A DNA stretch of 64,000 nucleotides from a virus. The notes beneath the pieces are model-generated. The model worked only from the letters and a program-made list of their open reading frames with translations, had not been told where the DNA came from and did not search any database. The translations under genes were made by a program, and so were the position numbers. Of the stretch, positions 15,901 to 55,473 are shown in pieces (within the stretch, counting starts at the first letter, position 1; every line of letters begins with the position of its first letter). The DNA lies in the IMG/VR virus record IMGVR_UViG_3300032285_000892, positions 55,149-119,148 of that record; one strand, written 5' to 3'.

Positions 15901-16409
15901 TATCTCCATATGGAGCAGCTGCTGATAAAGATGTTATTGTTTACTCATGGGAAGAGGGAACTAAGAATGAGAAGAAAGCAATGAGAGCTGCTAATGATTA
16001 CTCTTACATCAAGAAAGGATTATTTAAAAGAGTATATCAAGGTGGCACACCATTAATTCATACATACACAAGTTCTGATGGAACTGTTAGAGAGAACTAT
16101 GTATACAAGATGATGAACGCATGGGGTCAAGCAATGAATGCTAATGAGTTCTACATTGGACCAAGAGCTTCAGTAATTGAGAATGGATTTGAGAAAGTAT
16201 TTGCATCCACTACAGTTATCGAACCGTCTAAAGGAATCTTCTTCACTAATGTAACTAGTGATGAGGTGAGTGACGATCCAGTAGTTAGCTTATACAACAA
16301 CACTCCATTGCCTACAGCTACTAATGAATTGATTGAAAATCCTGTTAAAGAAGGACAAACTGAAGACTGGCAAGAAGAAGATAACACTTGCACTAACCCA
16401 ATTGGATAA
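3915..16409 (+). CDS. Giant virion protein with single-chain RNA polymerase core
   Basis: This 4,164-residue protein should transcribe phage early genes after being injected with the DNA. Order of parts: Gly/Ala-rich hydrophobic segments (about 184-215 and 446-460), possibly membrane-interacting; long charged coiled coils (about 945-1215); Pro/Ala linkers (about 1700-1718 and 1792-1822); a zincin-like segment with HEVFE at 1913-1917 and LAEEFRDYV near 1966; then the polymerase core. The core has KPIVSG at K2917 and LDKFALYPL at K2937 (candidate beta-like lysines). RIPSQ at 3265-3269 is followed 39 residues later by SDFDIDKL, with D3304, D3306 and D3308 as metal ligands. The spacing and sequence parallel the RQPTLH...ADFDGD pair of cellular beta'. 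DFDID is, as I recall, the motif of the crAss-like phi14:2 virion RNAP gp66. That protein is about half this length, so extra functions are fused here. TAATG coupling to the previous gene. Confidence 0.85.
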   Translation: MADQLPEQLKPVNLAAYMPSRVPDLSALVQSGNVGGGEPDLDIASQFQSLISQNSSKGNPLPVVSGGDVDFSGRYPLFYTDRDNEEMYAQAQSFGEKAYNGIAKFTGVTTAAFLNGTVGVVDGIYSAIHDWDASKFWKNDTSIALNDWTKNMEDSYAHYKTLRERNGNWWEPENLFTGNMFFDNIVKNLGYTVGSMGAGVVWGGALGLIGKAAKLSAYGTEAASIADSIIAEGAMTGDAASIASSSAKLDGALSSFQAKLGKAMLGSNRAIVAATGTAGEAGFEALNNSQEFRQRMIDQFKATHGYSPTEEDLKTIDQYATSVGNYSWLANSALLTATNYIQLPKIFSSTFKGERSIANTMLSEGKWVSSLADKGIGKFATKAKNVAGLFFAKSEAFEEGAQFAIQTGTQNYFDKKYKGEGASILNDAIGHGIKEAVSTDEGLLNIFLGGFSGGMSMAYGNIKQRGVTGYGGQEAKLRNEALGAWKDSMLTDKLKASVNDIRIAEAVQEERKQAIIDNDIQLAKDKEFDYAHTFIRSRLRYGAKEAIDAEIADLKQRAITDFIKLQTEGIAANTDTKEAFLNRLETVQQQANDAAKLKEALDVKYKGIVDPTTGKRAYSDATLEKLLYAGSKISDYNRRIPQLDQSLASYGISTTDALTEVVDTGTLSKETQDEVMNAIQSLTKSGIDSDIQDTLTTDFNDMMKLGVLRKKFLEEYNNLKTTPEKFDKLDEKAEEDNKPVDENAPKEVVTYKNEEGEDATLDTNEEYYIGTEAKNRKDKTVYSFKKFTVLGENEDGTIKVKTDEGEIKSIDKSWFTDNGKYLGKTSDVKADPKKRFFLNNRNTVYTFNFGKDKGGEVNGRLRYSEKEGVLEFVYLDKKGKERSLEVTGDQFTPKPGYKQAIIRATAVMSPLQKASEEEFIADSKNDPRVLEKIAKRAALLETFFDEMAENLAKTKRMVESKKRELNKTVEKIKGLRKTVEGPEAITAKTKRIKATVHTAIQNIASLTKMQDQLNDEIKSLEAEQEQLEINLEYVTDLASRLDEMPADLTKFYAVVRQERNALKETILEKGKLMNALHRVMENLESALQSLINQVMDLIGGFETKYPGLPMSASQISEFLTYFKGKPWERPSFMSVHPELIPDLQELDAEVAQIDEIQITPKQAAIDKTLEDIITLEEELTQLDKQLKAVSEVDTRLRKIYDEYVAGIKETEDIKKNKELKEQALGTIDNSLANVQYDRAYNPSSKKATAVIPNATIAPSEESEGKPLAEHHLRANLFGAKLENLPNRGNIQAVYVTKGNEAELGLPGLMDDLKGDAEGFSSSDTIAIVMVQMVDGKPRPVGIDGEVLETPSFENAIFQVKPTAEKLGDLFRDEKEGGPTKDQKDFIVNEYRAWRKETLANPSLTAYPVDASFGIPVRESSLDSEQNKVIDYTASTDVVSAGLVASNDKKNDLSTKQLVTVPTTEGTLNQGTTSYANPVGRPFLTLPNGNVPLKNRNLTKAEAETIYQALLRLAMLKNFKSDEAVRLMDWLRTIVYWGVPKNNPGYSSLFFNVKEDGTLALFISGKGTNIPFTTSSIKSNKDNLLTLLGGMYNNTNSRLVDNEEDYRKPYEEIVSVSEDGTVQSVTWKNYQTYLLSPKNPDGSIRKNIPLTVAMHPITGENDTNREGIYFIVNSNADRYAIPDVPAVSAALTPIASTRVLGATPVAQQAPAPAAQPATQYKFDGETENTAMVHGKPVKFIIDAAKFDDEGFVSLDIDKSAAVAIGKAIGSQDADEIEAEAGNTIYAAIYKELKAAQAPAPVVSTPVADVAAAPVVQTPAASTDASADTMAKIKAMQGGAIPNEFRVAINNSNQKRFEREDWKKFENWLKTTFPNVPVYRVKNVIQATNGQQAWGMFKNGAIYVYENAEVGTGYHEVFEAVWKMFSDKDERANVINEFKQRSGTFTDRPSGRTVNYKDATDQEIKEQLAEEFRDYVLKGKIPAKPTQGRPFIVKLFADLVNFIKEFFTGKKAEINTANLFDKIGRGYYKQYSPYESKLAFAKEGIIDIEDAYADSESDFRVAGFTSGQEHDVMQEMTYLTLAELTTTNKSLFNISDTVFKKDEHYNKLKTYMLTTLANAIQVVQEDTTKGDKEKQTDIDNYAALFENIDNQWPALVQRHAEYLVPYNVEFDENDHITLKDEDNSGKELYQDANKIDAFRKANSAVKLLLSTIPRVDTTGKPTLSSIGGHTLIPYSEISVSLMNKIASSRTVDQMVQRIADMAKNDIKYKVLYQRITRSKAYPNGDDYTNPRFSLNQLGEEHEVRLINTLWRTFKKNNPEVLNLYVLDNGEVQVGDSNFTTASAQVFNDFQESIVESVRNNKSPFFVYSAEARGYIGVAGSASKPLSSTAARVKFLKDLGISFTAKEIDKLASKKDFTRFNKAVDGIRTSINEADKIATISGKTVDITGRLKQLAEIRAKIDNPEFSSTYFNINGERVQVFIGTNANSDLYDALANIDNLNDLKGSQYGYLTTDSFVKGSVKLNAMFDPETGERIEGAQQLLKSTYADGTVNSAKGKRKSSSKLTYKERLVQQMNMMLEGYYPNLVPGDASMEQMVYMGNEFSAKDMANFENKIMPVFRDYFLSEVNLSKEDRPVVRGNTTDLRFFKPILADNNAKTEEERNSLHTDIVKAIKEGGSAESIYKSFDSRITKAVKDFITSESGNLQDLLEFYGILTEEEGSYNFENIAIGKDLNTDEMNRQVQAIAVNFMINNIELHKLLYSDPYQYLDELKRIKNFISPRQSIISQSPAMNSAMDNVYNKRYSKEVDKDGNLIDIGNTNFLKDSFTSITLSDVNAVDPKLKGYIEEAYKETDGGGVIMYKAYRNFRIRAGEWNDLEEKQYRYDIAWEKMDKGLFDQMSDYEQELLNEGNPQVKSAYTPIKPIVSGNKANGRDYNDVMLDKFALYPLSYRIQKEINSTSNAIKLYDKMQKENIDYAVFSSSRKVGAEETNDLYNPETGDFVNEPFKGLIEVPFAIMSIQSEVPSKDTADITRGSQVTKLITLDLMQAGVPVDFKSNVKDFAKRYEAWYNLSDAERMKQSELYTEIVNNQKYLELIMENGFNVLLDKLGITVTKTGAYKISDVAKLEKTLRDEMLKREINDNISDALTGFLNGDVVLEATPAYQQIRNILYSIADKNVMSPTISGGMKVQISPALLESVKAKAITDKKGKTAYVNDTLDFYELEEGGKKIKVCEILVGRWFNSDMSDEALLKYLNTTDEGKKILSGLAYRIPSQKQNSIDVFRIKKFLPKEFGDSVVIPSQLVNKAGSDFDIDKLNIYFKSLFINLEGKPEMFKYQGSEQATKDYYGNMFDTLIQSKESNVLKQLLNLSFSEFDDPEYEAKLQDRLEKIDKSKINRENFINNAYRRSLENEYIQSSENLASHPANFEQLTKPNSSKDFQDLSIEIVDKLGKKTFDYSSTGNMLSIPFMTELRHAFVTGKYAIGIAAQAQTNHSLNQRQPMYIDPERRKLADEVDRKWLGNGEVNFEQYNKIDIKGKMYPTLSFIKNAIGENISDLISQFIDGYVDISKGPWIMAMGATPNVAGTWMFLTKIGVPIKTVGYFMNQPIVRDYLLSIEKAGYSYLFMDDFVDAAKANYKTSSTNQIKTIPSESALGKMLGNTELTEDQKAEQQFILDEFLKYAKMAEQLFLVAQGSNYDTATFSDGYLVFKKQIQLEKAQRSIITSVDDLLKNSFIGRLKELTGDVRNALAETVLKSDEPSRVRGVVQKVLRPYVNMNDRDFVKVAQTVVSNLFDWAVQIDSGLNSRIKTILIGDEKNKTAVAGEVMKYVNDIKEDSEHPLFNNYAIELFSSKYAQSEGKVNNLIVKNKDNQVYNQNQLIYAFEEIKADNPEIYGKMVRLAVLQSGLTNSGISFTFLLPYKDFKAVYNKTLSVIEEFANLDDFYEMNVFERNNWNNSDMVPYVKANWIQSKKTGKFYYNPGMSFIDKGINTAIRQGTVPQLLQLSPYGAAADKDVIVYSWEEGTKNEKKAMRAANDYSYIKKGLFKRVYQGGTPLIHTYTSSDGTVRENYVYKMMNAWGQAMNANEFYIGPRASVIENGFEKVFASTTVIEPSKGIFFTNVTSDEVSDDPVVSLYNNTPLPTATNELIENPVKEGQTEDWQEEDNTCTNPIG

Positions 16410-16411
16410 AC

Positions 16412-19400
16412 ATGAGTACTTGTAAAGACACACAAAAGTTTAGGACATCTGAAGCATCCACTAAAGCAGCAATGCGTACACAGGGTGCTATAGATGGATT
16501 TTTGAACATACTCGATTTGGGTTTATTTAGAACGCTTAATGGTAAGTGGTCTAGAGATGCTAAGGAAAGATTCAACGTGCAAGAGATGTTATTCTTTGAA
16601 GAGGATAATGGTAGAAAAGCCAAACCTAATAAGCCAGCATTCAAACAAATTGATAATGCTAAAGGCATCTACTATCAAGAAGATGGGATGGCTCAATCAG
16701 TTGCAGACTCTCAGGTAATTGCTAATGTCAAGAAGCTTTTAGATAAGATGGGTGTGTCTATTCAGGACATATCTACTTATGCTAAGGAAGCTGGATTGGA
16801 TGTAACAGGGATCAATGGTATTGCTGATTTAACAAGAGGTATCATTGCTCTAGCTGATGGTAAAGAAGCTGCTGCTATTACAGAGGAGATGGTTCACATT
16901 GCCACTGCTATTATAGAGAAGAGAAATCCTGGAATGATTACAGAGATGATCTCTAAGATTGATCGGTTCAAGATATATAATGAAACATTAAAACAATACA
17001 AAGACAATCCTAAGTATCAACTACCTACTGGCAAACCTGACATTCGTAAGATTAAGAAGGAAGCTGTAGACAAATTAATCTCTGAGTTAATTATTAATGG
17101 TGGTAATCCGTCTGAGTCTTTCCCAGAACTTGCAGAAGATGTTGAAAGATCTACTATTCAGATCTGGTGGAACAAGATACTTGATTGGTTTAGAGGACAA
17201 TATAAAAACGCAAACATTGATATCTTTCAAGAAGCTAAGGAACAAATCTTAGAAGGAGATTTAGGAACTGTACAAGAAGCTGGTCTTGAAGGAACGTACT
17301 ATCAGTTAAGTGATGAGCAACAAAAGATTATAAACAATCTTAAAAATACAGGATTAATTAAAACAGAATCTGAAGAAAAAACAGATCCTGTTCTAATGGA
17401 TACAGAAGAAGCTACTAGCTTCTATGAAGTACAGAATGCTGAAGGTACATTAACTCGTGTTAAGAACAGGGTTACTGACTTGGTTAAAAACTATTACAAT
17501 AGTATTCCTGCATTCAGAAACAAAACTTTTACACCAGAAGAACAGAAGTTCAATGATCTTAAAAGAAGACTAGGTATTAGAGGCCATAAAGATTTTGAAT
17601 TAATCCATGGTAGATACTTTAATGAAGATGGTACAAAGAGAACAAGTCCTCTTCCACGTCCAGAAAAGTTTGATAATTTATCTGAAGACATGTACATATT
17701 GCTTGAGCAATACTACGTTGACTTAGTTAATAGTTTACCAAAGGATACAATTATTCTATCTGAGGTAAAGGTATATGATCCTAAAGCAGATAGAGCTGGT
17801 ACGATTGACTTCTTGGCTATTGATCCTACTGGTAAAGCTCACATCCTTGACTGGAAGTTTATGCAGATCAATGGTGATGATGTTGCATGGTTTAAGAAAG
17901 GAGCATATGATGTTCAGTTAGGAGAGTATAAAAAAATCCTACGTGAGAACTATGGTATCACTCAGTTTGGAATGAACAGAGCTATTCCTATCTCTATGGA
18001 ATTCCAATATCAAACTAAAGGAGATAAGTCATCACCACTAGTTCTTAAGAGTATTGCTATTGGAAGTGTTGATAAGTCTAAGTCTGTACCGTTATATCTA
18101 CAACCTGTACCTGAATCAAGTGAGTCTACAGGGTTTGCAGAACTAGATACATTGGTTAGTAAGTTGACAGCATTACTTAATGACTTAAGCAATGTAAGAT
18201 CTAAGACTGAAGACGAGCGTGAGTTCAAGATTGAATCTTTAAACACTCTTAGAAAAGCTATTAGACTTCTTCAAGTGACACAAGATAGGCAACCTTTGAT
18301 TCATGCAATTGAAGTAATGCGTCAAGAAGGAGAGCAGATCACAGATGATTACAAGATGATCTATGATAAGATGCCTGCTAAGTCTACTGATGTAGATAAT
18401 GCATCTTTATCTGACTTTGCTAATAAGATGAATGACTATATCAAGAACTCTGATATATTTGCAAACATTGGAGATCAGATTGGACATCTCATCTATACTG
18501 AAGACATGGATGCTTTAGCTAAAACTAAAGAGGAGAAAGCATTAGTTGAAAGTAGAAAAAGCACATTAAAGAACTTAGAAGCTGAATCTAAGAAAATTAG
18601 AATGTCTAAGACTGACATCATTGAATCAGCTAAGAAGTTCAATGATAAGTTTGTAGGACAGAGAAATAACATTACTGGTATTCTTAAACCTGAAGCTGTT
18701 GTAAAAGGATTAGTTTCTTGGTTTAGAGGAGTATCTGAATTAAGTTCTGCTTCTTTGAATGCATTGTATTCATTATATTCTAAAGGAGTGAGTGAAGCAA
18801 ATGCTAATGCGTTAGTTAATGTCAATAAGATAATGGACATTAGAACTAAGCTATTAGAAAGAGGTGGTGATATAAGAGCAATGGTTCGTCAGATCTATCA
18901 GTCAGATGAGAAAGGTGGATTAGTTAATAAACTTATCCGTAAGTATTCTAAAGATTTCTATTCTGAAGTTGATGAGAATGCTAAGAAAGATACAGGTAAG
19001 AAAGACTGGTTAAAGAGTAATGTTGATATTGAAGCTTATAAAGAAGCAGCAAGCAAAAGACTAGAACAAGATATTGCTAGAGTTAAAGCTGGTAAGTATC
19101 CTAAGGGTCAAGAGGAAGAAATCATTGAAGACCTTATTCTAAAGAAGCAACGTTTCTATGATATTGAGCGTGAGGACTTTAATGGTTGGAAGAATCCTTT
19201 ATTAAAGAAATTCCCTAAAGAAAAATGGTTATCAGAAGAATACAAAAAGATATCTAAGGATAAAGAATTGTTTGAGTTATATAACTTCATTGTTGAATTC
19301 AATGAACAGAAAGCTCAACCTTCTGGATACTTAGCTAACCAGACAGCATCTACATTCTTACCTTTCATTAGAAAGAGTATGGCTGAGCAAATCTCTTTTG

Positions 19401-21424
19401 ACTTTAATCTATCAGCACTACTTAACTTCTCAGACAATCTTAAAGCAAGAGTGGATGATGTAGGTTATCAGAATGTTAGTGAGATTGATGGACAGGTACA
19501 ACACGCTGTACCTAAATACTATACCACTGACTTTAGTAAAACTGATACAGGAGTAAATGATTACTCTGATGTAAGTGAAGACTTATTTGCTAACATGATT
19601 CTTTATGTTAAGCAAGTAGAGAAGTATGTACAGATGACAGAGATCGAAGGTCAAGTTAACTTGATGAAGACTCTGGAAGAGATGAAGGATCACTTAGATA
19701 CAAGTAAGTGGGGTGGTGTTATCTTAAAGAATGGTAAGACTCAAGAGATTAGAGGCAATAGTGAGAATGCTAAATTGTTTGATGACTTTAGAAGAGCATT
19801 ACTATATGAGGAGAAGTATCCATTAACAGACACTGATGTTAACTTTAACATTAAAAATAATGTTAAGAAGTTAGTTAATGGAATGACTGGTAGAGAGACA
19901 TTCAAGATTGATGAGAACGAGAGTGGTATATCAATGATGAAAACCATTGATGCTGTTAATAGAGGATTTCAATTAAAAACATTAGGATTAGAAATCATTC
20001 CTGGTGTAGTTAACTGGTTTGGTACAAACGTACAGTTGTCTGCTCAATCAGGAAACTACTTTAAAGCAAGAGAGATTCTTGAGAATCAATCTAAGCTTAT
20101 CGCTCAAGCATTTGAGAGTAAGGATGATGAGGAAATGTTTGTACAATTAGTCAATACATTCATGCCATTTAAAGATGACCCTGTTGGAGAACTTTACAAG
20201 AAAGCTGGTATGACTACTCTTACTCGTGGTAATCTAGGAGACATGTTAATGTTCTTCATGAGAAAACCAGAACAAGCTCTTGAGAAAACGGTATTTATGA
20301 CATTGTTAGATAATACAATGGTTGTTGATGGTAACATTGTTAGTATTAGAGAATATGTAAAAGCTAAGCGTGAAGGTCAAAGATTTAATTCTTCTAGCTC
20401 ATATAAATCTTCTAAGCAAGAAATTGAGAAGGAGATAGAGGAATTAAAGAAGACTAAGTCTATTAGTGCTACTAAAAAGCTAGTGGATGGTAAACTTGTT
20501 ATTCCTGGACTAAACTTAAACAATAGAGAAGAGATATTACGATTAACAGATCTTACAAGACGTATATCTAGAAATGCAACTGGAGGTATGTCAGATGGTG
20601 ACTTGAACCGTGCAGGAATGAACATCTGGACATCTAGTATGTTGATCTTTAAGAAATGGATTCCTAAGCTAGCTGATACACGTTTCTCTGAATTCAGAAA
20701 GGTGGGAGATGATTTCTCTGTACGTATTGATGATGCAGGTGAAGTGAGTGGACAGAAATATGATGTAGGTCGTATTAGACTACTTGCAGAAATCTTAATG
20801 GATAGTATCAGTAAAAGACAAATGAATATTGTGAACATTCTAAATATGAATGAAGACGGTATTGTTTATCTTGATCAACTATACGAACGTTATCAGAAAG
20901 AGTACGAAGCTAGAACAGGAGAGAAATTAAACATGACTCCTGACCAATTCAAAGATATGATTATAAACAACGTTCGTAATCAAATGAAAGAGATTGGTAT
21001 TCTTGTTAGTTTAGTTGCTGCTACAATTGCATCAGGTTATATGGCTCCAGATGACGATGATGACAGAGCTGCTAAGAATGCTTTCCGTTTTGCTCAAAGA
21101 ACAATGGATAAGTTTGTTAGTGAACTTTCATTCTTCTATAATCCATTTGAATTAGAGAAGATGCTTAGTGGAAACATGTTCCCTGCTATTGGTTTGATTA
21201 CAGATATTCAAAAGTTCATGTCTAATTTCTATAGTGAAATTACAGGATATGATTTTTCTGATAATACAGATACTCCTGAAGATGTTAGAAAGAAAGCTAA
21301 GCCTATTAAGTATTTAGCAAAGCTATTTCCAGGATCTAAAGCTTGGTTAACATATGGTGCTATGGTTAGTCCTGAGTTTGCTAAAGAGTATGATATTACA
21401 ATACAAGCCGAAAGCAATAGGTAA
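16412..21424 (+). CDS. Giant virion protein with zincin-like segment and PD-(D/E)XK nuclease
   Basis: This 1,670-residue protein follows the RNAP gene after 2 bases and is probably co-packaged. A zincin-like helix carries EEMVH at residues 158-162. It is followed by a helical region ending in an FQEAKEQIL motif and a YYQLS motif that I associate with crAss-like giant proteins. A RecB/Cas4-like PD-(D/E)XK core spans about 440-520: E451, D466 in GTIDF, D480-W-K482, then Q502-LGEY506, which matches the QxxxY helix of that family. The rest is Lys/Glu-rich helix of unknown role. One hydrophobic helix (about 1527-1545) lies before an acidic DDDDD run and the C-terminus. Nuclease fold assignment is strong; its job (host DNA degradation, genome release or processing) is inference. 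Confidence 0.75.
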   Translation: MSTCKDTQKFRTSEASTKAAMRTQGAIDGFLNILDLGLFRTLNGKWSRDAKERFNVQEMLFFEEDNGRKAKPNKPAFKQIDNAKGIYYQEDGMAQSVADSQVIANVKKLLDKMGVSIQDISTYAKEAGLDVTGINGIADLTRGIIALADGKEAAAITEEMVHIATAIIEKRNPGMITEMISKIDRFKIYNETLKQYKDNPKYQLPTGKPDIRKIKKEAVDKLISELIINGGNPSESFPELAEDVERSTIQIWWNKILDWFRGQYKNANIDIFQEAKEQILEGDLGTVQEAGLEGTYYQLSDEQQKIINNLKNTGLIKTESEEKTDPVLMDTEEATSFYEVQNAEGTLTRVKNRVTDLVKNYYNSIPAFRNKTFTPEEQKFNDLKRRLGIRGHKDFELIHGRYFNEDGTKRTSPLPRPEKFDNLSEDMYILLEQYYVDLVNSLPKDTIILSEVKVYDPKADRAGTIDFLAIDPTGKAHILDWKFMQINGDDVAWFKKGAYDVQLGEYKKILRENYGITQFGMNRAIPISMEFQYQTKGDKSSPLVLKSIAIGSVDKSKSVPLYLQPVPESSESTGFAELDTLVSKLTALLNDLSNVRSKTEDEREFKIESLNTLRKAIRLLQVTQDRQPLIHAIEVMRQEGEQITDDYKMIYDKMPAKSTDVDNASLSDFANKMNDYIKNSDIFANIGDQIGHLIYTEDMDALAKTKEEKALVESRKSTLKNLEAESKKIRMSKTDIIESAKKFNDKFVGQRNNITGILKPEAVVKGLVSWFRGVSELSSASLNALYSLYSKGVSEANANALVNVNKIMDIRTKLLERGGDIRAMVRQIYQSDEKGGLVNKLIRKYSKDFYSEVDENAKKDTGKKDWLKSNVDIEAYKEAASKRLEQDIARVKAGKYPKGQEEEIIEDLILKKQRFYDIEREDFNGWKNPLLKKFPKEKWLSEEYKKISKDKELFELYNFIVEFNEQKAQPSGYLANQTASTFLPFIRKSMAEQISFDFNLSALLNFSDNLKARVDDVGYQNVSEIDGQVQHAVPKYYTTDFSKTDTGVNDYSDVSEDLFANMILYVKQVEKYVQMTEIEGQVNLMKTLEEMKDHLDTSKWGGVILKNGKTQEIRGNSENAKLFDDFRRALLYEEKYPLTDTDVNFNIKNNVKKLVNGMTGRETFKIDENESGISMMKTIDAVNRGFQLKTLGLEIIPGVVNWFGTNVQLSAQSGNYFKAREILENQSKLIAQAFESKDDEEMFVQLVNTFMPFKDDPVGELYKKAGMTTLTRGNLGDMLMFFMRKPEQALEKTVFMTLLDNTMVVDGNIVSIREYVKAKREGQRFNSSSSYKSSKQEIEKEIEELKKTKSISATKKLVDGKLVIPGLNLNNREEILRLTDLTRRISRNATGGMSDGDLNRAGMNIWTSSMLIFKKWIPKLADTRFSEFRKVGDDFSVRIDDAGEVSGQKYDVGRIRLLAEILMDSISKRQMNIVNILNMNEDGIVYLDQLYERYQKEYEARTGEKLNMTPDQFKDMIINNVRNQMKEIGILVSLVAATIASGYMAPDDDDDRAAKNAFRFAQRTMDKFVSELSFFYNPFELEKMLSGNMFPAIGLITDIQKFMSNFYSEITGYDFSDNTDTPEDVRKKAKPIKYLAKLFPGSKAWLTYGAMVSPEFAKEYDITIQAESNR

Positions 21425-28254: not shown

Positions 28255-28269
28255 TTGCAAACTAAATAT

Positions 28270-28992
28270 ATGAGTGATATAAAGCCACAAATTGTAATGC
28301 ATGGGTTCGAAGGTTTTCACAACGAACAACGTTATGAAGACCTTGCCCAAAAGAATGTTTACAGGGACTTATCTACAATCTGTATTGTACCAACCAGAGG
28401 AATGATTTCTGCTAAGGTGGTTCAATCGTGGATGGGACTAATGTCATCAATGAACCAAAAGTTCATAAGGATGTTTGCAATCGGTATGGAAGTGGGTGCT
28501 GCCTATAGTCAAACTATAGAACAGATACTTCTACATCCAGAACTTTCTAAATGGAAATACATCTTGACTCTAGAGGAAGACAATTGTCCTCCACCAGATG
28601 GATTGATTAAGTTGTATGAACATATGGATGAGTATGATGCCATTGGTGGATTGTATTGGACTAAAGGTATAGAAGGTAAACCAATGTGTTACGGAAATCC
28701 TAAAGTGTTTCCAGTAAACTTTGTGCCATTTATGCCTGATCCTGATACGGTTACAAGATGTAACGGATTAGGAATGGGTTTTACTCTATTCAAACTAGAT
28801 ATGTTTAAGAACCCTAAGATGCCTAAACCTTTCTTTGAAACAGTTCAAAGATATACAGAAGGTAAAGGAGTGGAAGGATACACACAGGACCTAAAGTTCT
28901 TTGAAGAGGCAGGTAAACTTGGATATAAGTTTGCATGTGACTCAAGAGTAAAGGTAGGTCACTATGATGTGAATGAAGATCAAATGTGGTAA
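28270..28992 (+). CDS. GT-A-fold glycosyltransferase-like protein
   Basis: This ~240-residue protein resembles phage GT2-like glycosyltransferases. A beta-alpha N-terminus (TICIVPTRG) is followed near residue 100 by an acidic EEDN motif before PPPDG, in the position of the DxD nucleotide-sugar/metal site. A conserved GMGFTLF segment comes later. The reading frame extends to a TTG at 28255, but the ATG at 28270 is preferred: it sits 16 bases after a near-consensus promoter and avoids a rare start. It lies between two fibre genes and next to a methyltransferase, which suggests modification of fibre or host glycans. The sugar and acceptor cannot be read from sequence. Confidence 0.7.
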   Translation: MSDIKPQIVMHGFEGFHNEQRYEDLAQKNVYRDLSTICIVPTRGMISAKVVQSWMGLMSSMNQKFIRMFAIGMEVGAAYSQTIEQILLHPELSKWKYILTLEEDNCPPPDGLIKLYEHMDEYDAIGGLYWTKGIEGKPMCYGNPKVFPVNFVPFMPDPDTVTRCNGLGMGFTLFKLDMFKNPKMPKPFFETVQRYTEGKGVEGYTQDLKFFEEAGKLGYKFACDSRVKVGHYDVNEDQMW

Positions 28993-29010: not shown

Positions 29011-29586
29011 ATGAATGAACAATTAGAAGAAGTTATTGCAGTTGATTTAGGCTGCGGACAAAACAAAGCAACTATAGAGTTCTTTACAAACAATATGCAA
29101 GTCACTCCCACTAAAGTGATTGGTTTGGATATAGCTAACTGTGAAGGCGTAGATATTGTACACGACTTAACTGTATTTCCATATCCTATTGAGGATGAAT
29201 CAGTTGACGCAATACATACATCTCATTTCATAGAACACTTAGATGGGTTTGAGAGAATGAAGTTCTTTGATGAGTGCTATAGGATATTGAAGAAAGGCGG
29301 AAAGATTAGAGCTATCCATCCTTATTACAAATCTGTAAGAGCTATTCAAGATCCCACACATAAGTTTCCACCTATTGGTGAGACATCTTATTTGTATTGG
29401 GATAAGAATTGGAGAGAAGTCAACAAGCTTGACCATTATCCTATTAAGTGTGACTTTGAATTTAATATTTTTTATACTTGGCAAGACCCAAGTATACCAA
29501 ACAAGAATGAAGAAACAAGGAATTTCAGTATTGATAAATACTGGAATGTTGTGGCTGATATGATTGTCGATTTAAAGAAACGATAA
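29011..29586 (+). CDS. Class I SAM-dependent methyltransferase
   Basis: This 191-residue protein has motif I DLGCG (about 12-16), an acidic residue after the second strand (GLDIAN), and HFIEHL followed by a YRILKKGGK segment. This is the layout of Methyltransf_11-type enzymes. It follows the glycosyltransferase by 18 bases and precedes a fibre gene, so sugar methylation is the likely role (inference). No membrane segment. Confidence 0.8.
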   Translation: MNEQLEEVIAVDLGCGQNKATIEFFTNNMQVTPTKVIGLDIANCEGVDIVHDLTVFPYPIEDESVDAIHTSHFIEHLDGFERMKFFDECYRILKKGGKIRAIHPYYKSVRAIQDPTHKFPPIGETSYLYWDKNWREVNKLDHYPIKCDFEFNIFYTWQDPSIPNKNEETRNFSIDKYWNVVADMIVDLKKR

Positions 29587-32753: not shown

Positions 32754-33023
32754 ATGAAATTAAATTTTAACTTCAACTTGGTTAACCTAGATGGTATAGA
32801 GATCGAGAATGCTAATGCAGGAAAAGTATTAGCAAACGCACTAGTTCAACAACCTAAAGGAGATGCTCTTAAAATATGGGAAATATCATTAGCTCTCAAC
32901 AAGGGAGAGATTGTTGATTTAGATTCTTCTGATCAAGAACTTATTAAAAACTTCATTAGAGAGACTGACGCAATTAATATTATTGCTAAGGGTCAAATCC
33001 TAACTGTTTTTAATAAAGGGTAG
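32754..33023 (+). CDS. Small hypothetical phage protein
   Basis: This 89-residue soluble protein begins MKLNFNFNLVNLDGIEIEN and continues with a helix and an acidic C-terminal half. Short proteins with a similar opening occur near fibre or tail genes in many phages, but I know no function. The start is set by the promoter at 32702-32732. Its last 24 bases overlap, tail to tail, the end of the minus-strand glycosyltransferase gene. Confidence 0.65.
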   Translation: MKLNFNFNLVNLDGIEIENANAGKVLANALVQQPKGDALKIWEISLALNKGEIVDLDSSDQELIKNFIRETDAINIIAKGQILTVFNKG

Positions 33024-34070
33024 TTTAACCATTACATCTTCTACGGAGATACTCTTATGGCATTCAAACTGTCTAGGAGTATCTTCGTGTTCAGGACACC
33101 AGTTCCAATTACCCTTATCAAATCTGAATTTAGGGTTATTCCAACATCCATTACATACACTTCTGTTTTCTATACGGATGCATTCAAACTCGTGATTAGC
33201 TTCTGTAAAGTTAGCTATCATTACAACAATAGTTTCTAATGCCCAGGCCAACCAGCTAATACCACTACTTAGTCCTATGTAGAAGTCACATCCATTAAGA
33301 TGATTAATGACGCTCTCTAGAGATGTATCTTCTAGTTTCTCTGCACCATAATCATCTGCCTCTTGTGATAATTCAATCACTCTATATCCTTGATCTTTTA
33401 GCCTACGTATAAGTTCTGGCCACTTATCCCAATGTTTGCATTGAGATGTACTTTTTGTAGATATACAGATATACTTTTCATCTTCCAGTAATAATCCTGG
33501 TAGATCAATTATCCTTGGTCTCATCTCCTTGTATGGTAGATGTAGAATATTACATGCGGCTTTCTGTAATGGTATCGTTACAGGATTAACAGGTTCTTTA
33601 TTACTATCCCAATGCCATCCTAAGTCTGGCATAGCTACAATATCATATACCACCTGCCCTGGTTGAACAAACTCAAGTTCAGGATACATACTTTCAAACA
33701 AGAAGTTCTTGAATGTGCTCACGATAACATCGCACTGATACTTCTTTTTGAACTCTAAACAATATGGCATCCATGCAATAGTATCTCCTAAGGAGCTGCT
33801 ACCAAATGCAATGAACACACGTTTATCTTTAAGATGTTGTAAGAAGCTTATGCGACGTTTCAATACACCCTTACTGTTCCTAGCTTCCAAAAAGAAGTTA
33901 CCAATGTAACGTATAGGAAACTTCATCCATGTATTCTTACTAAGAGTTGTACTATAGTGTTCTTTACGTTCACCATCAATCTCTTCAACAAATGTACATG
34001 TATAATCTTCATCACAGTCTGTAATTTCAAAGTACAAACCATCAATGTTATGGAAGTTATAATTAAACAT
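33000..34070 (-). CDS. TibC/BAHT-like (GT9) protein O-heptosyltransferase homologue
   Basis: This 356-residue protein matches the pattern of autotransporter heptosyltransferases, which put heptose on Ser hydroxyls of adhesin passenger domains. The N-terminal beta-rich part is followed by FIAFGSSSLGDTIAWMPY (GT9 nucleotide-sugar site), ICISTKSTSQCKHWDKW, and YIGLSSGISWLAWAL. The C-terminal finger has four cysteines (C306, C309, C325, C337) ending in RQFECHKSI. TibC-type enzymes bind iron through a four-cysteine finger of this kind. It is the last gene of the 40-33 kb cassette and overlaps the preceding gene by 8 bases. The phage's Ser/Thr-rich fibres are natural candidate acceptors (inference). 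Confidence 0.75.
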   Translation of the reverse strand: MFNYNFHNIDGLYFEITDCDEDYTCTFVEEIDGERKEHYSTTLSKNTWMKFPIRYIGNFFLEARNSKGVLKRRISFLQHLKDKRVFIAFGSSSLGDTIAWMPYCLEFKKKYQCDVIVSTFKNFLFESMYPELEFVQPGQVVYDIVAMPDLGWHWDSNKEPVNPVTIPLQKAACNILHLPYKEMRPRIIDLPGLLLEDEKYICISTKSTSQCKHWDKWPELIRRLKDQGYRVIELSQEADDYGAEKLEDTSLESVINHLNGCDFYIGLSSGISWLAWALETIVVMIANFTEANHEFECIRIENRSVCNGCWNNPKFRFDKGNWNWCPEHEDTPRQFECHKSISVEDVMVKLPFIKNS

Positions 34071-38396: not shown

Positions 38397-39331
38397 GTTA
38401 TTGTTTTTGCAAGGTTATACACTCTATCTACGTCTGGTTGACACTCAAACGTTTCTTTGTTTTCTAAACATCCAATGAGTGGCTGCACATAATCTATAGT
38501 GGGCCAATACTCAAGGGCGTACTTCATATTGGAGCAGCAATGTAGATCACACGATCCCTCTACATAGTGGTATCGATACGTCTGACCATTGGCCCTATAA
38601 GGTATTCTAAATTCAGGAGATAGTGCAGATCCTAGATGAATGATCTCACTGCGTGTTGTACCTGCTAGATGTAGCAGTCCGCTATCCATTGTAATAAAAC
38701 ATGAAGCTTTGTTGATGAGGTGCCAGCAATCAGATATACTGGTCTTGTTCATTAGGTTCATACCTAATGGTATTTCAAAATTGAATGCAGGTTTTTCTAC
38801 ATTAAAGAACCCAGTCTCACTACTATCCTTACCTATACTGATGACATGTATACCTGCAGCATTAAGCTTCTCTGTTAAATCCATCCACTTATCTGCTGGC
38901 CATGTTCTATTAGCCCATGTGGTTACAGGATGTATCAATACATAATGTTCAGGGAGTTCCATCTCAAAGTCTGTGAGAGGAATGTAATCACATTTCATCT
39001 CACTCTTACGTAACATAAATCCTAAATGTATAGCATGGAACTGACGTATGTCCATGGTATTATGCTTCATCTCTACACCACGCTCATCTTTCTTACCTAC
39101 CAGATAGAAAGAGTTATGCATGATATAATTATCATTGAAGTAACCCCAGTCAATTGATGTATGTTTATAACTAGCCTCTACGTATGGTAGTTTCTTGAAC
39201 AACTCTGGCATAGGACTCACCACAGTTATCTTCTTTCCGTATGATTCAGCTAGCTTTCTTATCGTAGGCGTTGCACAGATAAGATCACCTAGAGCAGGAC
39301 ATTCACTAAGATTAAGACAAACAGGTTTCAT
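38375..39331 (-). CDS. GT9 heptosyltransferase-like glycosyltransferase
   Basis: This 318-residue protein has the GT9 layout: CPALGDLICATPTIRKLAE at the N-terminus (like GDxxxxTPxLxxL of WaaC/WaaF), a central VLIHPVTTWANRTWPADKW donor-site motif, and ITMDSGLLHLAGTTRSEIIHLG, matching the DSGxxHxA signature. A Cys-rich C-terminus follows. GT9 enzymes transfer ADP-heptose to LPS or proteins. It starts 4 bases into the end of the upstream FkbM gene (ATGA-type overlap) and overlaps the next gene. Confidence 0.8.
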   Translation of the reverse strand: MKPVCLNLSECPALGDLICATPTIRKLAESYGKKITVVSPMPELFKKLPYVEASYKHTSIDWGYFNDNYIMHNSFYLVGKKDERGVEMKHNTMDIRQFHAIHLGFMLRKSEMKCDYIPLTDFEMELPEHYVLIHPVTTWANRTWPADKWMDLTEKLNAAGIHVISIGKDSSETGFFNVEKPAFNFEIPLGMNLMNKTSISDCWHLINKASCFITMDSGLLHLAGTTRSEIIHLGSALSPEFRIPYRANGQTYRYHYVEGSCDLHCCSNMKYALEYWPTIDYVQPLIGCLENKETFECQPDVDRVYNLAKTITCHEKGS

Positions 39332-39972
39332 GATTTTCTCATTAAGAAGTCAACTGTCTCATCGTTTCTCTCAATTATTTCATATCCTAATCCTGTTAGA
39401 AAATTCACTGCAGTGTTTGTATTATCTTCTAACCAGATAAGTGGTGCATCTCTATCAATCAACTTTAACATACCTTCAAATGCAGACATCTCATGACCTT
39501 CTATATCTATCTTAATGAATTCAACATGCTCATCTAAATGAAGATCATCTAAAGCTAAGACTATATTTCTATTATGTCCATATTGAACAATTCTTACAAC
39601 ACCACTATTTGAGTAATGTCCATCATCAAAATGCACAAGGGATGTTCTACTACCTACACCTACATTAAGTGCGGCTACATCAGAATACCTATCTGTATTC
39701 TGTTTTAATAAAGCAAAGTTTTCTGGATGAATTTCAAAAGCTATGATATTTAGCTCAGGAAAGTGGTGTTTGAATTGTACACAATGTGCACCTATGTTAG
39801 CACCAATGTCTAACATTAGTCCTGTAGAAGGGAAATGATGTTTCCATCTATTGAATATTTCAAATTCCCAAAAGTTATTATACTTAACTATATCGTCTGA
39901 TATAAACTCAGGACCCTCAAAAATAATCATAGGGTTACCTTGTATACTAGTAAGTCTAGTTCCTCTTCTCAT
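39328..39972 (-). CDS. FkbM-family methyltransferase
   Basis: This 214-residue protein carries FkbM signatures: LMLDIGANIGAHCVQF (SAM site), IIAFEIHPENFALLKQN, and FIKIDIEGHEMSAFEGM. Such enzymes O-methylate sugars or other metabolites. The frame extends to 40020 but that would cross both divergent promoters; the ATG at 39972 lies 18 bases after TAACTTTG and is preferred. First gene of the five-gene glycan cassette that runs to 33000. Confidence 0.85.
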   Translation of the reverse strand: MRRGTRLTSIQGNPMIIFEGPEFISDDIVKYNNFWEFEIFNRWKHHFPSTGLMLDIGANIGAHCVQFKHHFPELNIIAFEIHPENFALLKQNTDRYSDVAALNVGVGSRTSLVHFDDGHYSNSGVVRIVQYGHNRNIVLALDDLHLDEHVEFIKIDIEGHEMSAFEGMLKLIDRDAPLIWLEDNTNTAVNFLTGLGYEIIERNDETVDFLMRKS

Positions 39973-39976
39973 GTAT

Positions 39977-40007
39977 TTGTTGGTTTGGTCAAAGTTAAAT
40001 ATATTTG
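39977..40007 (+). promoter_or_regulatory. Divergent promoter, plus-strand arm
   Basis: TTG (39977-39979), 20 bases, TATATTTG (40000-40007); the gene starts at 40024. It interlocks with the minus-strand promoter at 39990-40020. Confidence 0.75.
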
Positions 40008-40020
40008 TATAAAAAAACAA
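39990..40020 (-). promoter_or_regulatory. Divergent promoter, minus-strand arm
   Basis: On the minus strand: TTG (40020-40018), 20 bases, TAACTTTG (39997-39990), with the FkbM ATG 18 bases further. It shares most of its length with the plus-strand promoter, so the two polymerases cannot bind together. Confidence 0.7.
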
Positions 40021-40526: not shown

Positions 40527-40572
40527 AATAGCATCTCAATCCTTCTAAAGGGTAGGGATGTTATTGTTTTTT
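40527..40572 (+). terminator. Second hairpin and U-tract before the lysis cassette
   Basis: AATAGCATC (40527-40535) pairs with GATGTTATT (40557-40565, one G-U pair), with CCTT/AAGG inside. The RNA then runs into GTTTTTT. It ends 13 bases before the ATG at 40585, so lysis genes need readthrough or melting of this hairpin. Confidence 0.6.
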
Positions 40573-40584
40573 CTACTATGCGCA

Positions 40585-40878
40585 ATGGCTAATTTTACTT
40601 ACGATCAATTTAAAAGCTGGTTATTTCCAGCGTTAATATCCGCATTGGGTATGATGATTTGGAATGACGTTAATGAAATAAAAGCTGATGTAAAAGCTTT
40701 GATGGCTCAATCAAATATAGATAAGACACGTATAGATAACCTAGAACGTGAGGTATATAAGACTACAACATATAAAGTACCTTTTCCTATTGATTTCCCT
40801 CCTAAAGATTTAAAGATTAGGCCAGTTGCAATAATGAATAGAGATGAAGATGAAGACGTGGATAGTCAAGATATTTAA
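40585..40878 (+). CDS. Small single-span membrane protein of lysis cassette
   Basis: This 97-residue protein has a hydrophobic N-terminal segment (about residues 11-27, LFPALISALGMMIW), then a charged helix with coiled-coil character, then a Pro-rich acidic tail. This is a holin- or pinholin-partner-like layout, but no family is recognised. The ATG at 40585 is preferred to one at 40558, which lies inside the terminator hairpin. It overlaps the next membrane protein by 35 bases and is three genes from the endolysin. Confidence 0.55.
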   Translation: MANFTYDQFKSWLFPALISALGMMIWNDVNEIKADVKALMAQSNIDKTRIDNLEREVYKTTTYKVPFPIDFPPKDLKIRPVAIMNRDEDEDVDSQDI

Positions 40879-41116
40879 GTATATAGAGAACATGTGGATA
40901 GGTAAGGATGGTAAGCCGTCTATCCGTAGAGTGTTCGCTATTGCATTGGTTACAGATTTTATTAACAATACTAATTACGCAATACATAAATGGGAAGTAG
41001 GTAAGTCATATGCAGATGTGGCTATGCTATTAGGAATAGAAGCAGGACTTATTGCTGCACTACTTACACTAACTACATATTCAACAACAATTAAACAACC
41101 AACAATTACAGAATGA
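40844..41116 (+). CDS. Putative holin
   Basis: This 90-residue protein has a basic N-terminus, a first weakly hydrophobic segment (about 30-40, RRVFAIALVTDF) and a strong hydrophobic helix (about 58-76, VAMLLGIEAGLIAALLTLT) with a short polar tail. This fits a small holin with two membrane segments. It lies in a run of overlapping genes leading to an M15 endolysin. An alternative start is the ATG at 40850. No sequence family recognised; the call rests on topology and position. Confidence 0.55.
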   Translation: MKMKTWIVKIFKYIENMWIGKDGKPSIRRVFAIALVTDFINNTNYAIHKWEVGKSYADVAMLLGIEAGLIAALLTLTTYSTTIKQPTITE

Positions 41117-41748
41117 GAAATTACCAAATTAAAAACTATGTAACGATAGGTATAATAGGAGTGCTTATGGCAATCATCATCATGCAAAGAGCATGTACTC
41201 CTAGTGTAGACACCACAAAAAAAGACACAGTGGTAGTAACAAAGATAGTTTATGTACCAGTACATGACACAGTCTACACAGATCCTAAGATAGTAACAAG
41301 AGTAGTTCCTGGTAAAGTTCTACCTCCACAGTATCTACCTGATACAAACTATGTAGCTCTAAAGAAACAATACCAACGACTTGTTATTGAGCATCTATCT
41401 AAGAATGTATATGAGGATAAGTTAAACTTAGATACATTAGGTAATATCATTATACATGACACTACACAGTTTAATAGGTTGGGTAAAAGAAGTTATGAGC
41501 TCAATCTACGTATTCCTAAAAGAATTGACTCTGTATATGTAACCAATACTATCCTTGCTCCACCAACACGCCAGGTGTATTTAGGAATAGGTGCTAACGC
41601 TACACAAACATTAGGTACAATAGGACTACGAGCTTCATTGCTGTATAAAGATAAGAAAGATAATATCTTTAGTCCTAGTGTAATGATTAATACTAACGGT
41701 GGTATTATATACGGTATAGATACATATTTTAAAATAAAGCTACGATGA
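41113..41748 (+). CDS. Membrane-anchored envelope protein, spanin candidate
   Basis: This 211-residue protein has an N-terminal membrane helix (about 9-25, YVTIGIIGVLMAIIIM) followed at once by RACTPS, then a Thr/Val-rich periplasmic stretch (DTVVVTKIVYVPVHDTVY). Its C-terminus looks like a few amphipathic beta strands (VYLGIGANATQTLG ... IDTYFKIKL), suggesting outer-membrane contact. A protein joining inner and outer membrane next to a holin candidate and endolysin suggests a unimolecular spanin. That is inference. ATGA overlaps with both neighbours. Confidence 0.5.
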   Translation: MRNYQIKNYVTIGIIGVLMAIIIMQRACTPSVDTTKKDTVVVTKIVYVPVHDTVYTDPKIVTRVVPGKVLPPQYLPDTNYVALKKQYQRLVIEHLSKNVYEDKLNLDTLGNIIIHDTTQFNRLGKRSYELNLRIPKRIDSVYVTNTILAPPTRQVYLGIGANATQTLGTIGLRASLLYKDKKDNIFSPSVMINTNGGIIYGIDTYFKIKLR

Positions 41749-41909
41749 AAAAAATAATTGATTTTGTTAAAGGATTGTTTTGCAAAGATTGTGGTATCAA
41801 AGCACAAATTGTTATCAAACCTTCTGAAGAGAAAAAAGAAGCTATTGCAAAAAAGAAAAACTTAGAAAAGCTAGCAACAGCAGTTAAGAAAAAGAATAAT
41901 GGTAAGTAG
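41745..41909 (+). CDS. Small basic hypothetical protein
   Basis: This 54-residue frame starts MKKIIDFVKGLFCKDCGIK, contains a CKDC pair and ends in a Lys-rich helix. It overlaps the previous gene by an ATGA junction and the endolysin start by 11 bases, which supports it as a real coupled gene. No function known. Confidence 0.55.
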   Translation: MKKIIDFVKGLFCKDCGIKAQIVIKPSEEKKEAIAKKKNLEKLATAVKKKNNGK

Positions 41910-42327
41910 CACACAAGCATTAAAAAAGTATGGACAGCCCGATCTTCTTGCTACACAAAACAAGAACATGTTGTTGTGGGATGTTCCTACAGAATTAGAA
42001 ATAGGTGTAATACCTAAGAAGATATTTTGTAATAAAGATATGGTGGAGCCTTTGACACAGGCGTTCAAAAATCTTATAGAGACAGGGCATGTAAAAGAGC
42101 TTAAGACATGGGATGGATGTTTTAATATTCGTAAAATGCGTGGGCTATCATCTATGTCATTACACTCATGGGGTATTGCTATTGATGTCAATGCCTTTGA
42201 GAATCAACTTAATCAAGTACCCAAGCTTTCATCTGGGTTTGTTAAATGTTTTACAGATGCAGGCTTTGATTGGGGTGGAGAATGGGAGAGAATGGATGGT
42301 ATGCACTTTCAACTTAAAAATATATAA
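41899..42327 (+). CDS. M15-family endolysin (L-Ala-D-Glu or D-Ala-D-Ala peptidase)
   Basis: This 142-residue single-domain enzyme should cleave peptide cross-links of peptidoglycan. Zinc ligands of the M15/VanY family are visible: SLHSWGIAIDVNA with H89 and D96 (SxHxxGxAxD), and DGMHFQ with H136. It has no signal peptide, so export would depend on the holin. The size matches compact phage M15_4 endolysins. It is the last gene of the lysis cassette. Confidence 0.85.
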   Translation: MVSSTQALKKYGQPDLLATQNKNMLLWDVPTELEIGVIPKKIFCNKDMVEPLTQAFKNLIETGHVKELKTWDGCFNIRKMRGLSSMSLHSWGIAIDVNAFENQLNQVPKLSSGFVKCFTDAGFDWGGEWERMDGMHFQLKNI

Positions 42328-46274: not shown

Positions 46275-47291
46275 ATGAGGGAATTAAAGTTTATCTGTGC
46301 ACAGCCAGATGATACGTATTATACGTGGCAGGTGCATTTATGGATTGAGAGTCTTAGAAATATAGGACACTCAGACAAAGCAATCGTTCTTATCTTTATT
46401 CCTAACTTCAGGGAGAAGAATGAGAAATGGCAACAGGTAATAGATCTATATCCAGAAACAGAATTTGTATTCTATAAGGATGTAGATGGTGTAAGTAATA
46501 AGCTAGGAGTTTACATTCCTGTTCTTAGGCCGTATGTGCTGATGAGATACTTCTACGAACATCCAGAGATGAAAGAGAAAGCAGTATTCTATTGCGACTC
46601 TGACGTAGTCTTTACAGATAAATTTAATGTTGATACATTTATTGATGATGATGTAAATTATTTATCAGATACAAACAGTTACATCAACGCCTCATATTTT
46701 GATAGTAAAATTCATCAAGTGCTTCCTGATAAGTTGGAAGCATATAAAAAGATAGATGTTCTAGCACAAGCTACAGAGATGTGTGATATCACACGCCAAA
46801 TAGCAGAAGCAAACAACGATCATTCTGGTGGTGCTCAGTATTTGTTAAAGAACATTGATGGAGCATTCTGGGAAAAAGTATTAAGAGATTGTATTTCAAT
46901 ACGTACGTATTTACAAAACATCAATCGTTTATACTTCAAAGATGAGAATAGTGGTTTCCAGAGTTGGTGTGCAGACATGTGGGCAGTTTTATGGGCTCTT
47001 TGGTTTAGAGGTGCTGAAACGAAGAATATTCCTGAGTTGGAATTCTCGTGGAGCTCAGATCCTATTGACAAAGTCCACAGGTTAGGTATTCTACACAATG
47101 CAGGAATAGTTAGTAATGACATGGGTGATTACCCAGCATTCTACAAAGGACATTATCACATGGGTAAAGATCCTATGTTAGACGCTCATTTAGAATATGT
47201 CTATAATGATGATAGAGCAAAACAAAAAGGAACACATTATTACGTTGAACAATTAATTAAATTAAAACAAAAGTATAAATTAAACTATTAA
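46275..47291 (+). CDS. GT-A glycosyltransferase with DSD motif
   Basis: This 338-residue protein has a beta-alpha nucleotide-sugar domain and the metal-binding DxD site at D108-S-D110 (VFYCDSDVVF), preceded by LGVYIPVLRPYVLMRYF. Later conserved-looking parts are NDHSGGAQYLL and LHNAGI, typical of GT8/GT2-like phage enzymes. No membrane segment. It is placed between fibre genes and a Thr-rich protein that could be an acceptor (inference). Confidence 0.75.
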   Translation: MRELKFICAQPDDTYYTWQVHLWIESLRNIGHSDKAIVLIFIPNFREKNEKWQQVIDLYPETEFVFYKDVDGVSNKLGVYIPVLRPYVLMRYFYEHPEMKEKAVFYCDSDVVFTDKFNVDTFIDDDVNYLSDTNSYINASYFDSKIHQVLPDKLEAYKKIDVLAQATEMCDITRQIAEANNDHSGGAQYLLKNIDGAFWEKVLRDCISIRTYLQNINRLYFKDENSGFQSWCADMWAVLWALWFRGAETKNIPELEFSWSSDPIDKVHRLGILHNAGIVSNDMGDYPAFYKGHYHMGKDPMLDAHLEYVYNDDRAKQKGTHYYVEQLIKLKQKYKLNY

Positions 47292-55061: not shown

Positions 55062-55473
55062 GTCCTTCTGTTCCTCTTTGTGTTTCTGATAATTCTTCTA
55101 CTTCTGTATACTGTACTAATGGTACAGGCATGATTACTAACTGAGCAATACGATCACCCACTGAATAAACTCCTCTTTTACCCAATTGTCCCCATTTCAT
55201 ATTAAATGTAACCATGATCTCGCCTCTGTATCCACTATCAATAACACCAACAGAATTGGCCATAACCAAGTCTGTATTTCTTATAGAGGAACGTGGAAAC
55301 ACAAGTCCCACCATTCCCTCAGGTATTTCTACAGCAATTCCTGTACCATATATCATTTGATCATCTCCATGTATGGTAATTGATGTAGCTGTAAGATCTG
55401 CACCTGCATCTCCTGGTTTGCCAAACTTAGGCTTCTGTGCTTCCTGCACTAACTTCTTGAATTGAATCTTCAT
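55042..55473 (-). CDS. dut: dUTPase
   Basis: This 143-residue trimeric-type dUTPase hydrolyses dUTP to dUMP and PPi, limiting uracil in phage DNA and feeding dTMP synthesis. All five motifs are visible: I PGDAGADL, II PRSSIR, III GVIDSGYRGEI, IV GDRIAQLVI and V RGTEGHGSTGK. In motif V the usual RGxxGFGSTG has His in place of Phe. The start lies 47 bases inside the end of recA. Confidence 0.95.
   Translation of the reverse strand: MKIQFKKLVQEAQKPKFGKPGDAGADLTATSITIHGDDQMIYGTGIAVEIPEGMVGLVFPRSSIRNTDLVMANSVGVIDSGYRGEIMVTFNMKWGQLGKRGVYSVGDRIAQLVIMPVPLVQYTEVEELSETQRGTEGHGSTGK

Follow-up and report, generated by a model that had tools for sequence, protein, structure and literature searches.

Among the heptosyltransferases of glycosyltransferase family 9 (GT9), the lipopolysaccharide (LPS) enzymes WaaC and WaaF are not known to possess the finger or the barrel of TibC, a protein-modifying enzyme of the BAHT family (TIGR04414). 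In TibC, Cys339, Cys342, Cys358 and Cys370 are the iron ligands, Arg286 contacts the adenine of ADP, and a beta-hairpin thumb with a hydrophobic tip builds a ring of 12 subunits (PMC4358343). The present analysis deals with an open reading frame (ORF) with an ATG start codon at positions 33000-34070 of the window, which is a stretch of 64,000 nucleotides (positions 55,149 to 119,148) of the virus contig IMGVR_UViG_3300032285_000892 (119,148 bases). A first-pass annotation had described its product as a TibC/BAHT-like enzyme that may have been captured from cellular adhesin-modifying enzymes for use on phage fibres. Since the window holds genes for tail fibres, UvsX, ribonucleotide reductase and RIIB, the location of the enzyme in a phage holds. 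Altogether, we consider it probable that the enzyme belongs to a thumbless branch of the BAHT family and, as a GT9 protein O-glycosyltransferase, would modify the serines of Gly-X-Ser collagen-like tail fibres, probably with heptose. A phage fibre remains the most likely target, although a different one than had been proposed.

The TIGR04414 model matched the window enzyme with 227 bits (3.4e-67) at a curated equivalog cut-off of 200, compared to only 25.7 bits at a cut-off of 185.3 for TIGR02193 (LPS heptosyltransferase I). Accordingly, a phmmer search against the PDB showed TibC (4rap) as the best match with an E of 3.9e-43, compared to 0.39 for WaaC. The Pfam model TibC_1st gave no match at E 0.01, and no PHROGs family was found for the protein at E 0.001. 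An AlphaFold2 model based on 30 sequences (mean pLDDT 92.2) comprises a GT-B fold with an N-terminal beta-barrel. By Foldseek and pairwise fold alignment with Z scores, the best structural match of this model was TibC (Z 37.8, root-mean-square deviation 2.9, 348 residues aligned), and the alignment extends over model residues 1-356 including the barrel, whereas the alignment with WaaC (Z 17.8) begins at residue 83. Structural modelling, which the first-pass annotation had suggested for the metal finger, yielded a TibC-like fold of the enzyme.

The four cysteines that had been pointed out, C306, C309, C325 and C337, show a spacing of 3/16/12, which is identical to that of the TibC iron ligands. 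Since they are intact in 77/77 distinct enzymes from the main viral clade, the finger is, judged by its conservation, not a product of chance. The statement that the GT9 site is kept turned out to be correct for the most part. In a residue table from which L028 was excluded as too short, D96 aligns with the catalytic Asp110 of TibC, and T208, K212 and W273 align with its donor residues Thr226, Lys230 and Trp305. These positions are invariant in 88/88 viral rows and kept in 77/77 distinct rows of the main clade. Arg286 and Pro300, however, are replaced by Val and Ser, respectively, and Arg286 was kept in 0/77 main-clade viral rows, which show T, V, A or I instead. The stretch of the thumb (TibC 252-276) comprises 25 amino acids in TibC compared to 14 in the window enzyme and 14-16 in 76/77 main-clade viral rows, and the model shows no hairpin strands at this position.

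Relatives of the enzyme were found in several collections. A protein search of phage records gave a relative in 4 of 50,697, namely Microcystis phage Mel-JY01, the only isolate among the records with the enzyme, and three records from uncultured phages (636-735 kb). The scans of IMG/VR resulted in 27 loci in the first and at least 591 relatives thereafter, the best 80 of which were kept for analysis. With the same alignment query, 19 loci were obtained from a set of bacterial and archaeal species, where the phage-derived search patterns would mostly miss canonical enzymes; a direct TIGR04414 search in 398 genomes of one phylum gave 8 with a match, all of at least 484 bits. A comparison of 24 kb of the window with the phage collection showed no near-identical DNA.

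In a tree of 83 rows (quick IQ-TREE run with SH-aLRT support only, no bootstrap), all TIGR04414-type rows were separated from WaaC, WaaF and the second GT9 enzyme of the window with a support of 97%, on long branches. TibC was placed inside a clade of canonical enzymes with 100% support, and the window enzyme lies outside of this clade in a virus-only clade of 38 rows (97%). The phylogeny is hence in line with the first-pass annotation as far as the separation from LPS-type GT9 enzymes is concerned, but it does not place the enzyme with TibC and does not support the suggested capture from adhesin-modifying enzymes; it is compatible with either direction of gene transfer. An LPS-type GT9 identity was rejected by score, fold and tree. 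Since the thumb, Arg286, a grouping with the TibC clade and a TIGR04415 autotransporter partner are all missing, the window enzyme belongs to the TIGR04414 superfamily but lies outside its canonical, autotransporter-modifying subfamily (TibC/AAH).

Indications for the acceptor came from the genes next to related enzymes. Since the phage and bacterial sets consist of related sequences, the p values given in the following are descriptive. In bacterial chromosomes, a Gly-X-Ser/Thr repeat gene lies within 1 kb of the enzyme gene in 13 of 17 thumbless or short-thumb loci, compared to 0 of 15 canonical rows (14 distinct ones, as L049 and L134 denote one locus; Fisher p 7e-6). Conversely, a strand-loop-strand neighbour was observed for 8 of the 15 canonical thumbed rows and for 0/17 thumbless or short-thumb loci (Fisher p 6e-4). 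The genes adjoining the latter are small, consist of GTSGTSG or GSSGTSG repeats and appear secreted or lipoprotein-like by eye from their N-termini. Two partners of thumbless enzymes gave collagen-like matches, and TIGR04415 acceptor repeats (up to 23) were found in 3/3 tested canonical partners. The gammaproteobacterial relatives have the enzyme gene next to a Gly-X-Ser gene, and no glycosyltransferase (GT) cassette is visible there.

A similar picture was obtained for one sampled order, which we take to be Methylococcales based on its named member Methylobacter (L036). Among 251 genomes, 15 showed TIGR04414, comprising 9 thumbless, 5 canonical and 1 partial enzyme, a division made by score and, where the sequence was fetched, by the thumb. 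The partial match (G643), which is below the cut-off, was excluded from the comparison. A Gly-[Ser/Thr]-[Ser/Thr] pattern restricted to Ser and Thr was present in 8/9 genomes with a thumbless enzyme, in 0/5 with a canonical one and in 9/236 without the enzyme (Fisher p 7e-10 for 8/9 versus 9/236). For G459 and G636, two of the last nine, the pattern is confined to a very short frame. Among the eight genomes with a thumbless enzyme and the pattern, five (G502, G596, G600, G669 and G676) have the exact match beside the enzyme gene.

The viral loci point in the same direction. An ORF with (Gly-X-Y)10 or longer was found within the fetched flanks of 77 of 110 viral loci, and among the remaining 33, 24 were checked for a repeat elsewhere in the record, which was present in 6. 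Applying a stricter rule with Ser or Thr in Y, 64 of 89 distinct viral enzymes showed such a gene at a median distance of 1.9 kb, many of the misses being short contigs. In the reverse test, TIGR04414 was found in 12 of 26 phage records with Gly-Thr-Ser collagen, compared to 1 of 26 Gly-Pro records (p 4e-4). The records were drawn by DNA pattern, with about 80 of 120 stretches listed per scan, and the repeats were inspected afterwards. The first set comprises 26 contigs of at least 40 kb from 80 listed rows. Loci L171, L214 and L230 were left out since they are the same contigs as the BAHT loci L077, L102 and L008; including them would change the count to 15/29. The Gly-Pro set comprises 22 records of at least 40 kb and 4 of 35-39 kb. 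Its sole enzyme-bearing record also contains 299 matches of the Gly-Ser/Thr pattern, compared to none in the 21 others covered by this pattern scan (22 of the 26 Gly-Pro records). The Y position is mainly Ser in the enzyme-associated repeats, whereas the Gly-Pro controls mostly show other residues, often Thr or Gln. TibC is described to modify Ser and not Thr, at sites including Ser313 in N-S-G-G (PMC4358343). This preference fits the mostly-Ser Y position and was counted in favour of a collagen acceptor.

In the window, a collagen-like fibre in the adjacent plus-strand block had been recognised correctly in the first-pass annotation: the 2,222-residue protein reaches 354 for NF038329 at a cut-off of 325 and comprises 369 Gly-X-Y triplets in runs of at least 5, with Ser in Y in 197 of them and no Pro in any of these triplets. 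The positions of this fibre and of the other features are summarised in the following table.

Features of the window around the thumbless BAHT-type enzyme
Feature	Position	Strand	Remarks
Collagen-like tail fibre, 2,222 aa	21549..28217	+	preferred candidate acceptor
GT-A-like protein of unknown specificity	28255..28992	+	phrog_1574; GT-A is a reading of the sequence by eye
Methyltransferase	29011..29586	+	Methyltransf_11
Fibre with YadA-head-like repeats, 915 aa	29620..32367	+	acceptor proposed in the first-pass annotation
Predicted thumbless TibC/BAHT-type GT9 protein O-glycosyltransferase, 356 aa	33000..34070	-	Cys4 finger C306/C309/C325/C337; catalytic D96
GT2-GT4 protein, 566 aa	34063..35763	-	3' end overlaps BAHT start by 8 bases
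GT4 with further domains, 875 aa	35769..38396	-	
Second GT9, heptosyltransferase-like, 318 aa	38375..39331	-	conserved in most mapped cassettes
FkbM-type methyltransferase	39328..40020	-	TTG start as listed; present in part of the relatives
Lysis-type block	40558..42327	+	beyond the cassette; contains an endolysin (41899-42327)
Fibre with short N-terminal Gly-X-Ser collagen-like stretch, 680 aa	43275..45317	+	secondary candidate acceptor

Another explanation would be that the enzyme heptosylates Ser on the beta-helical or YadA-like fibre of 915 residues, as TibC does on TibA. The YadA-head-like character of this fibre is partly confirmed, as NTAIG-type repeats are visible by eye and phage tail-spike and structural PHROGs were matched, but no Pfam or NCBIfam family was found at E 0.01. 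Its gene lies close to the enzyme gene, it is rich in Ser and Thr (102 S, 147 T), the matched PHROGs are virion structural families, and the fold of the enzyme resembles that of TibC. Nonetheless, such an acceptor is unlikely. TIGR04415 acceptor repeats were detected neither in this fibre nor in the two other candidates of the window, and only two of the ten nearest mapped loci showed a homologue, which is partial in L008 and covers no more than residues 1-71 in L004. In contrast, relatives consistently have Gly-X-Ser collagen-like genes next to the enzyme as a conserved feature. Furthermore, the thumb needed for the ring of TibC is missing, and none of the 17 thumbless bacterial enzymes mentioned above adjoins a strand-loop-strand autotransporter. 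Due to the poor conservation and the missing repeats, the 915-residue fibre is disfavoured as main acceptor and is kept as a rival to the collagen-like fibre.

The enzyme gene is the last one of a cassette on the minus strand, which is transcribed in the order FkbM-type methyltransferase, second GT9, 875-residue GT4 protein, GT2-GT4 protein and BAHT. In the ten nearest mapped loci, the GT4 genes and the BAHT gene recur in the same order and are oriented against the fibre and lysis genes around them, and the second GT9 is present in seven of them. The latter shows LPS-heptosyltransferase-like scores (42.8 bits), which are below all cut-offs, and several Cys near its C-terminus; we would guess that it performs a second heptose step. 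Among 85 distinct viral BAHTs uncut at the 5' end, 59 comprise an N-terminal extension of at least 200 amino acids, which in 55 cases matches a separate cassette protein of the window: 43 match the GT4 of the 875-residue protein, 11 the GT4 of the 566-residue protein and 2 the second GT9, with one counted twice. Ten fusion examples additionally carry GT25, FkbM, TylF and other methyltransferase domains, and DUF6165 together with Glyco_transf_25 was observed in one fusion. These fusions indicate that the BAHT step shares one pathway with the GT4 enzymes.

Alternatively, the cassette could modify LPS or capsule as surface glycans of the host, for instance in superinfection exclusion. The LPS-heptosyltransferase-like second GT9, the GT4 enzymes and the methyltransferase as well as the DUF6165 fusion would be in agreement with this possibility. 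However, both the tree and the TIGR02193 score set the BAHT enzyme clearly apart from WaaC and WaaF, and its Gly-X-Ser association recurs in bacteria lacking the rest of the cassette, which makes an action on host glycans improbable.

Based on these data, it is assumed that the enzyme would glycosylate the Ser hydroxyls of Gly-X-Ser triplets, chiefly in the 2,222-residue fibre, with heptose as the probable sugar and ADP-heptose of the host as its source. Extension of this first sugar would fall to the other GTs of the operon, namely the second GT9 and both GT4 proteins, and methyltransferases may cap the glycan. Since the hairpin thumb is missing, the enzyme should not form the 12-mer ring of TibC; it may act as a back-to-back dimer via the iron finger, which would be better suited to a thin extended chain than to a thick beta-helix. 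Such glycans would make the fibre more stable, and shielding or an adjustment of host binding may be further effects. As a precedent, galactosyl-threonine reportedly stabilises a worm cuticle collagen. The stabilising benefit is proposed because little strength is expected of a collagen that lacks Pro and because the glycans of BclA are believed to give its helix a better hydration network (PMC8968730).

Several observations weigh against the modification of collagen-like fibres as described here. The candidate acceptor gene lies about 5 kb from the enzyme gene and on the opposite strand. Among the Gly-Thr-Ser records, 14 of 26 lack the enzyme; these may be fragments or carry other enzymes. 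For 4 of the 17 thumbless bacterial loci no Gly-X-Ser gene was found within 1 kb; two of these (L040 and L048) are contigs of about 5 kb, L034 has such a gene 5 kb away and L439 has none in 11 kb. In G585, G642 and G003, the exact-pattern match is distant from the enzyme or on a different contig, although a less regular repeat adjoins the enzyme. Since the loss of the thumb is essentially one clade-level character, the correlation of thumb and acceptor may rest on few independent evolutionary events. Concerning the donor, HldE domain II (TIGR02199) was found in 0/26 phage records over the cut-off, with three weak matches, and GmhA was not searched. On this result phage-made ADP-heptose was rejected, and the host would have to supply it. 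Since Arg286 is replaced throughout the main viral clade, another nucleotide sugar is possible as donor.

The last two points could also be explained by an enzyme that acts on collagen-like fibres with a different donor sugar, or that extends rather than initiates a glycan, as might be expected from its frequent fusion to other GTs. This is rather unlikely, since the equivalents of Asp110, Thr226, Lys230 and Trp305 are invariant and since the gammaproteobacterial enzymes adjoin a Gly-X-Ser gene with no GT cassette visible, which indicates that the enzyme probably initiates.

Some further BAHT loci differ from this picture. The phage enzyme at L021 8882-10999 (lineage L021/L022) keeps the thumb and Arg286 and represents the one thumb-bearing phage lineage. 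Neither a strand-loop-strand nor a Gly-X-Ser partner was found at the L021/L022 loci, and records G712 and G713 showed no Gly-Ser/Thr pattern, so that this lineage is neutral for the relation between thumb and acceptor. In a GT4-BAHT fusion on a Pacearchaeota-binned contig (L039 997-3348), the finger cysteines are lost, while Arg286 and an insert resembling the thumb are retained. The loci L035, L046 and L050, binned as Winogradskyella, Deltaproteobacteria and Nitrosotalea, respectively, appear phage-like by eye (tail-type and Gly-X-Ser genes), so that the bin names may mislead. The record of Mel-JY01 (PP395634; L030 2-3052) begins with an open ORF with a Gly-X-Ser run of 447 amino acids, in a region for which the deposited annotation lists other ORFs.

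Upstream of the fibre region, the window contains one ORF of 4,164 amino acids (3915-16409) and a 1,670-residue protein (16412-21421) with a weak match (25% identity over 25%) to uncultured phage cr108_1, which is presumably crAss-like. Homologues of the 1,670-residue protein flank the collagen-like fibre in relatives. The ribonucleotide reductase matches many phages. A protein at 46275-47291 belongs to phrog_4417, a conserved phage family of unknown function, and appears GT-A transferase-like by eye.

In the open-licence PMC literature, no paper was found that links a heptosyltransferase with collagen-like proteins or describes BAHT enzymes in phages. More tentatively, and with somewhat less than even confidence, we propose that a thumbless TibC-type enzyme together with Gly-X-Ser collagen could form a widespread undescribed module of phages and free-living bacteria, in which a sugar on Ser in Y would replace hydroxyproline and stabilise Pro-free triple helices, and in which loss or gain of the thumb would mark the change from one substrate class, collagen or beta-helix, to the other. 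Should this hold, a family that owes its name to virulence adhesins would also be one that glycosylates collagen and abounds in viruses (at least 591 relatives in one viral scan). This would further provide a route by which collagen is glycosylated at Ser, an explanation of how Pro-free Gly-X-Ser phage fibres could be stable, and simple two-gene pairs in bacteria for testing. If the collagen-directed reading is true, the TIGR04414 name "autotransporter strand-loop-strand O-heptosyltransferase" is probably wrong on the substrate for thumbless members over the cut-off, including the window and methanotroph enzymes.

Compared to known systems, the window enzyme shares with WaaC and WaaF the GT9 fold and an ADP-heptose-type site, but is separated from them by long branches in the tree and scores far below the curated cut-off. 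With TibC and AAH (PDB 4rap, 4rb4) it has in common the spacing of the Cys4 iron finger, the GT-B fold with the N-terminal barrel, the catalytic Asp and the equivalents of Thr226, Lys230 and Trp305, and with AAH additionally Ser at position 300. It differs from both by the missing hairpin thumb, the replaced Arg286 and the lack of a TIGR04415 autotransporter partner, as well as by its virus-only clade, its GT4-fused relatives and the linkage to Gly-X-Ser collagen-like proteins. While bacterial collagens generally favour Thr in Y, the window fibre carries Ser in Y and no Pro. A collagen-like region glycosylated by a dedicated glycosyltransferase is also described for the spore glycoproteins BclA and BclA3 (PMC8968730, PMC7157674), where the abstract of PMC7157674 does not name the BclA3 enzyme SgtA as BAHT or GT9. 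Mimivirus L230, a collagen hydroxylase and glucosyltransferase, adds glucose to hydroxylysine (PMC9614988). As is proposed for the window enzyme, it is virus-encoded and glycosylates a collagen-like protein of the virus, whereas in the present case Ser would be the acceptor, and the enzyme is a GT9 member encoded by a phage.
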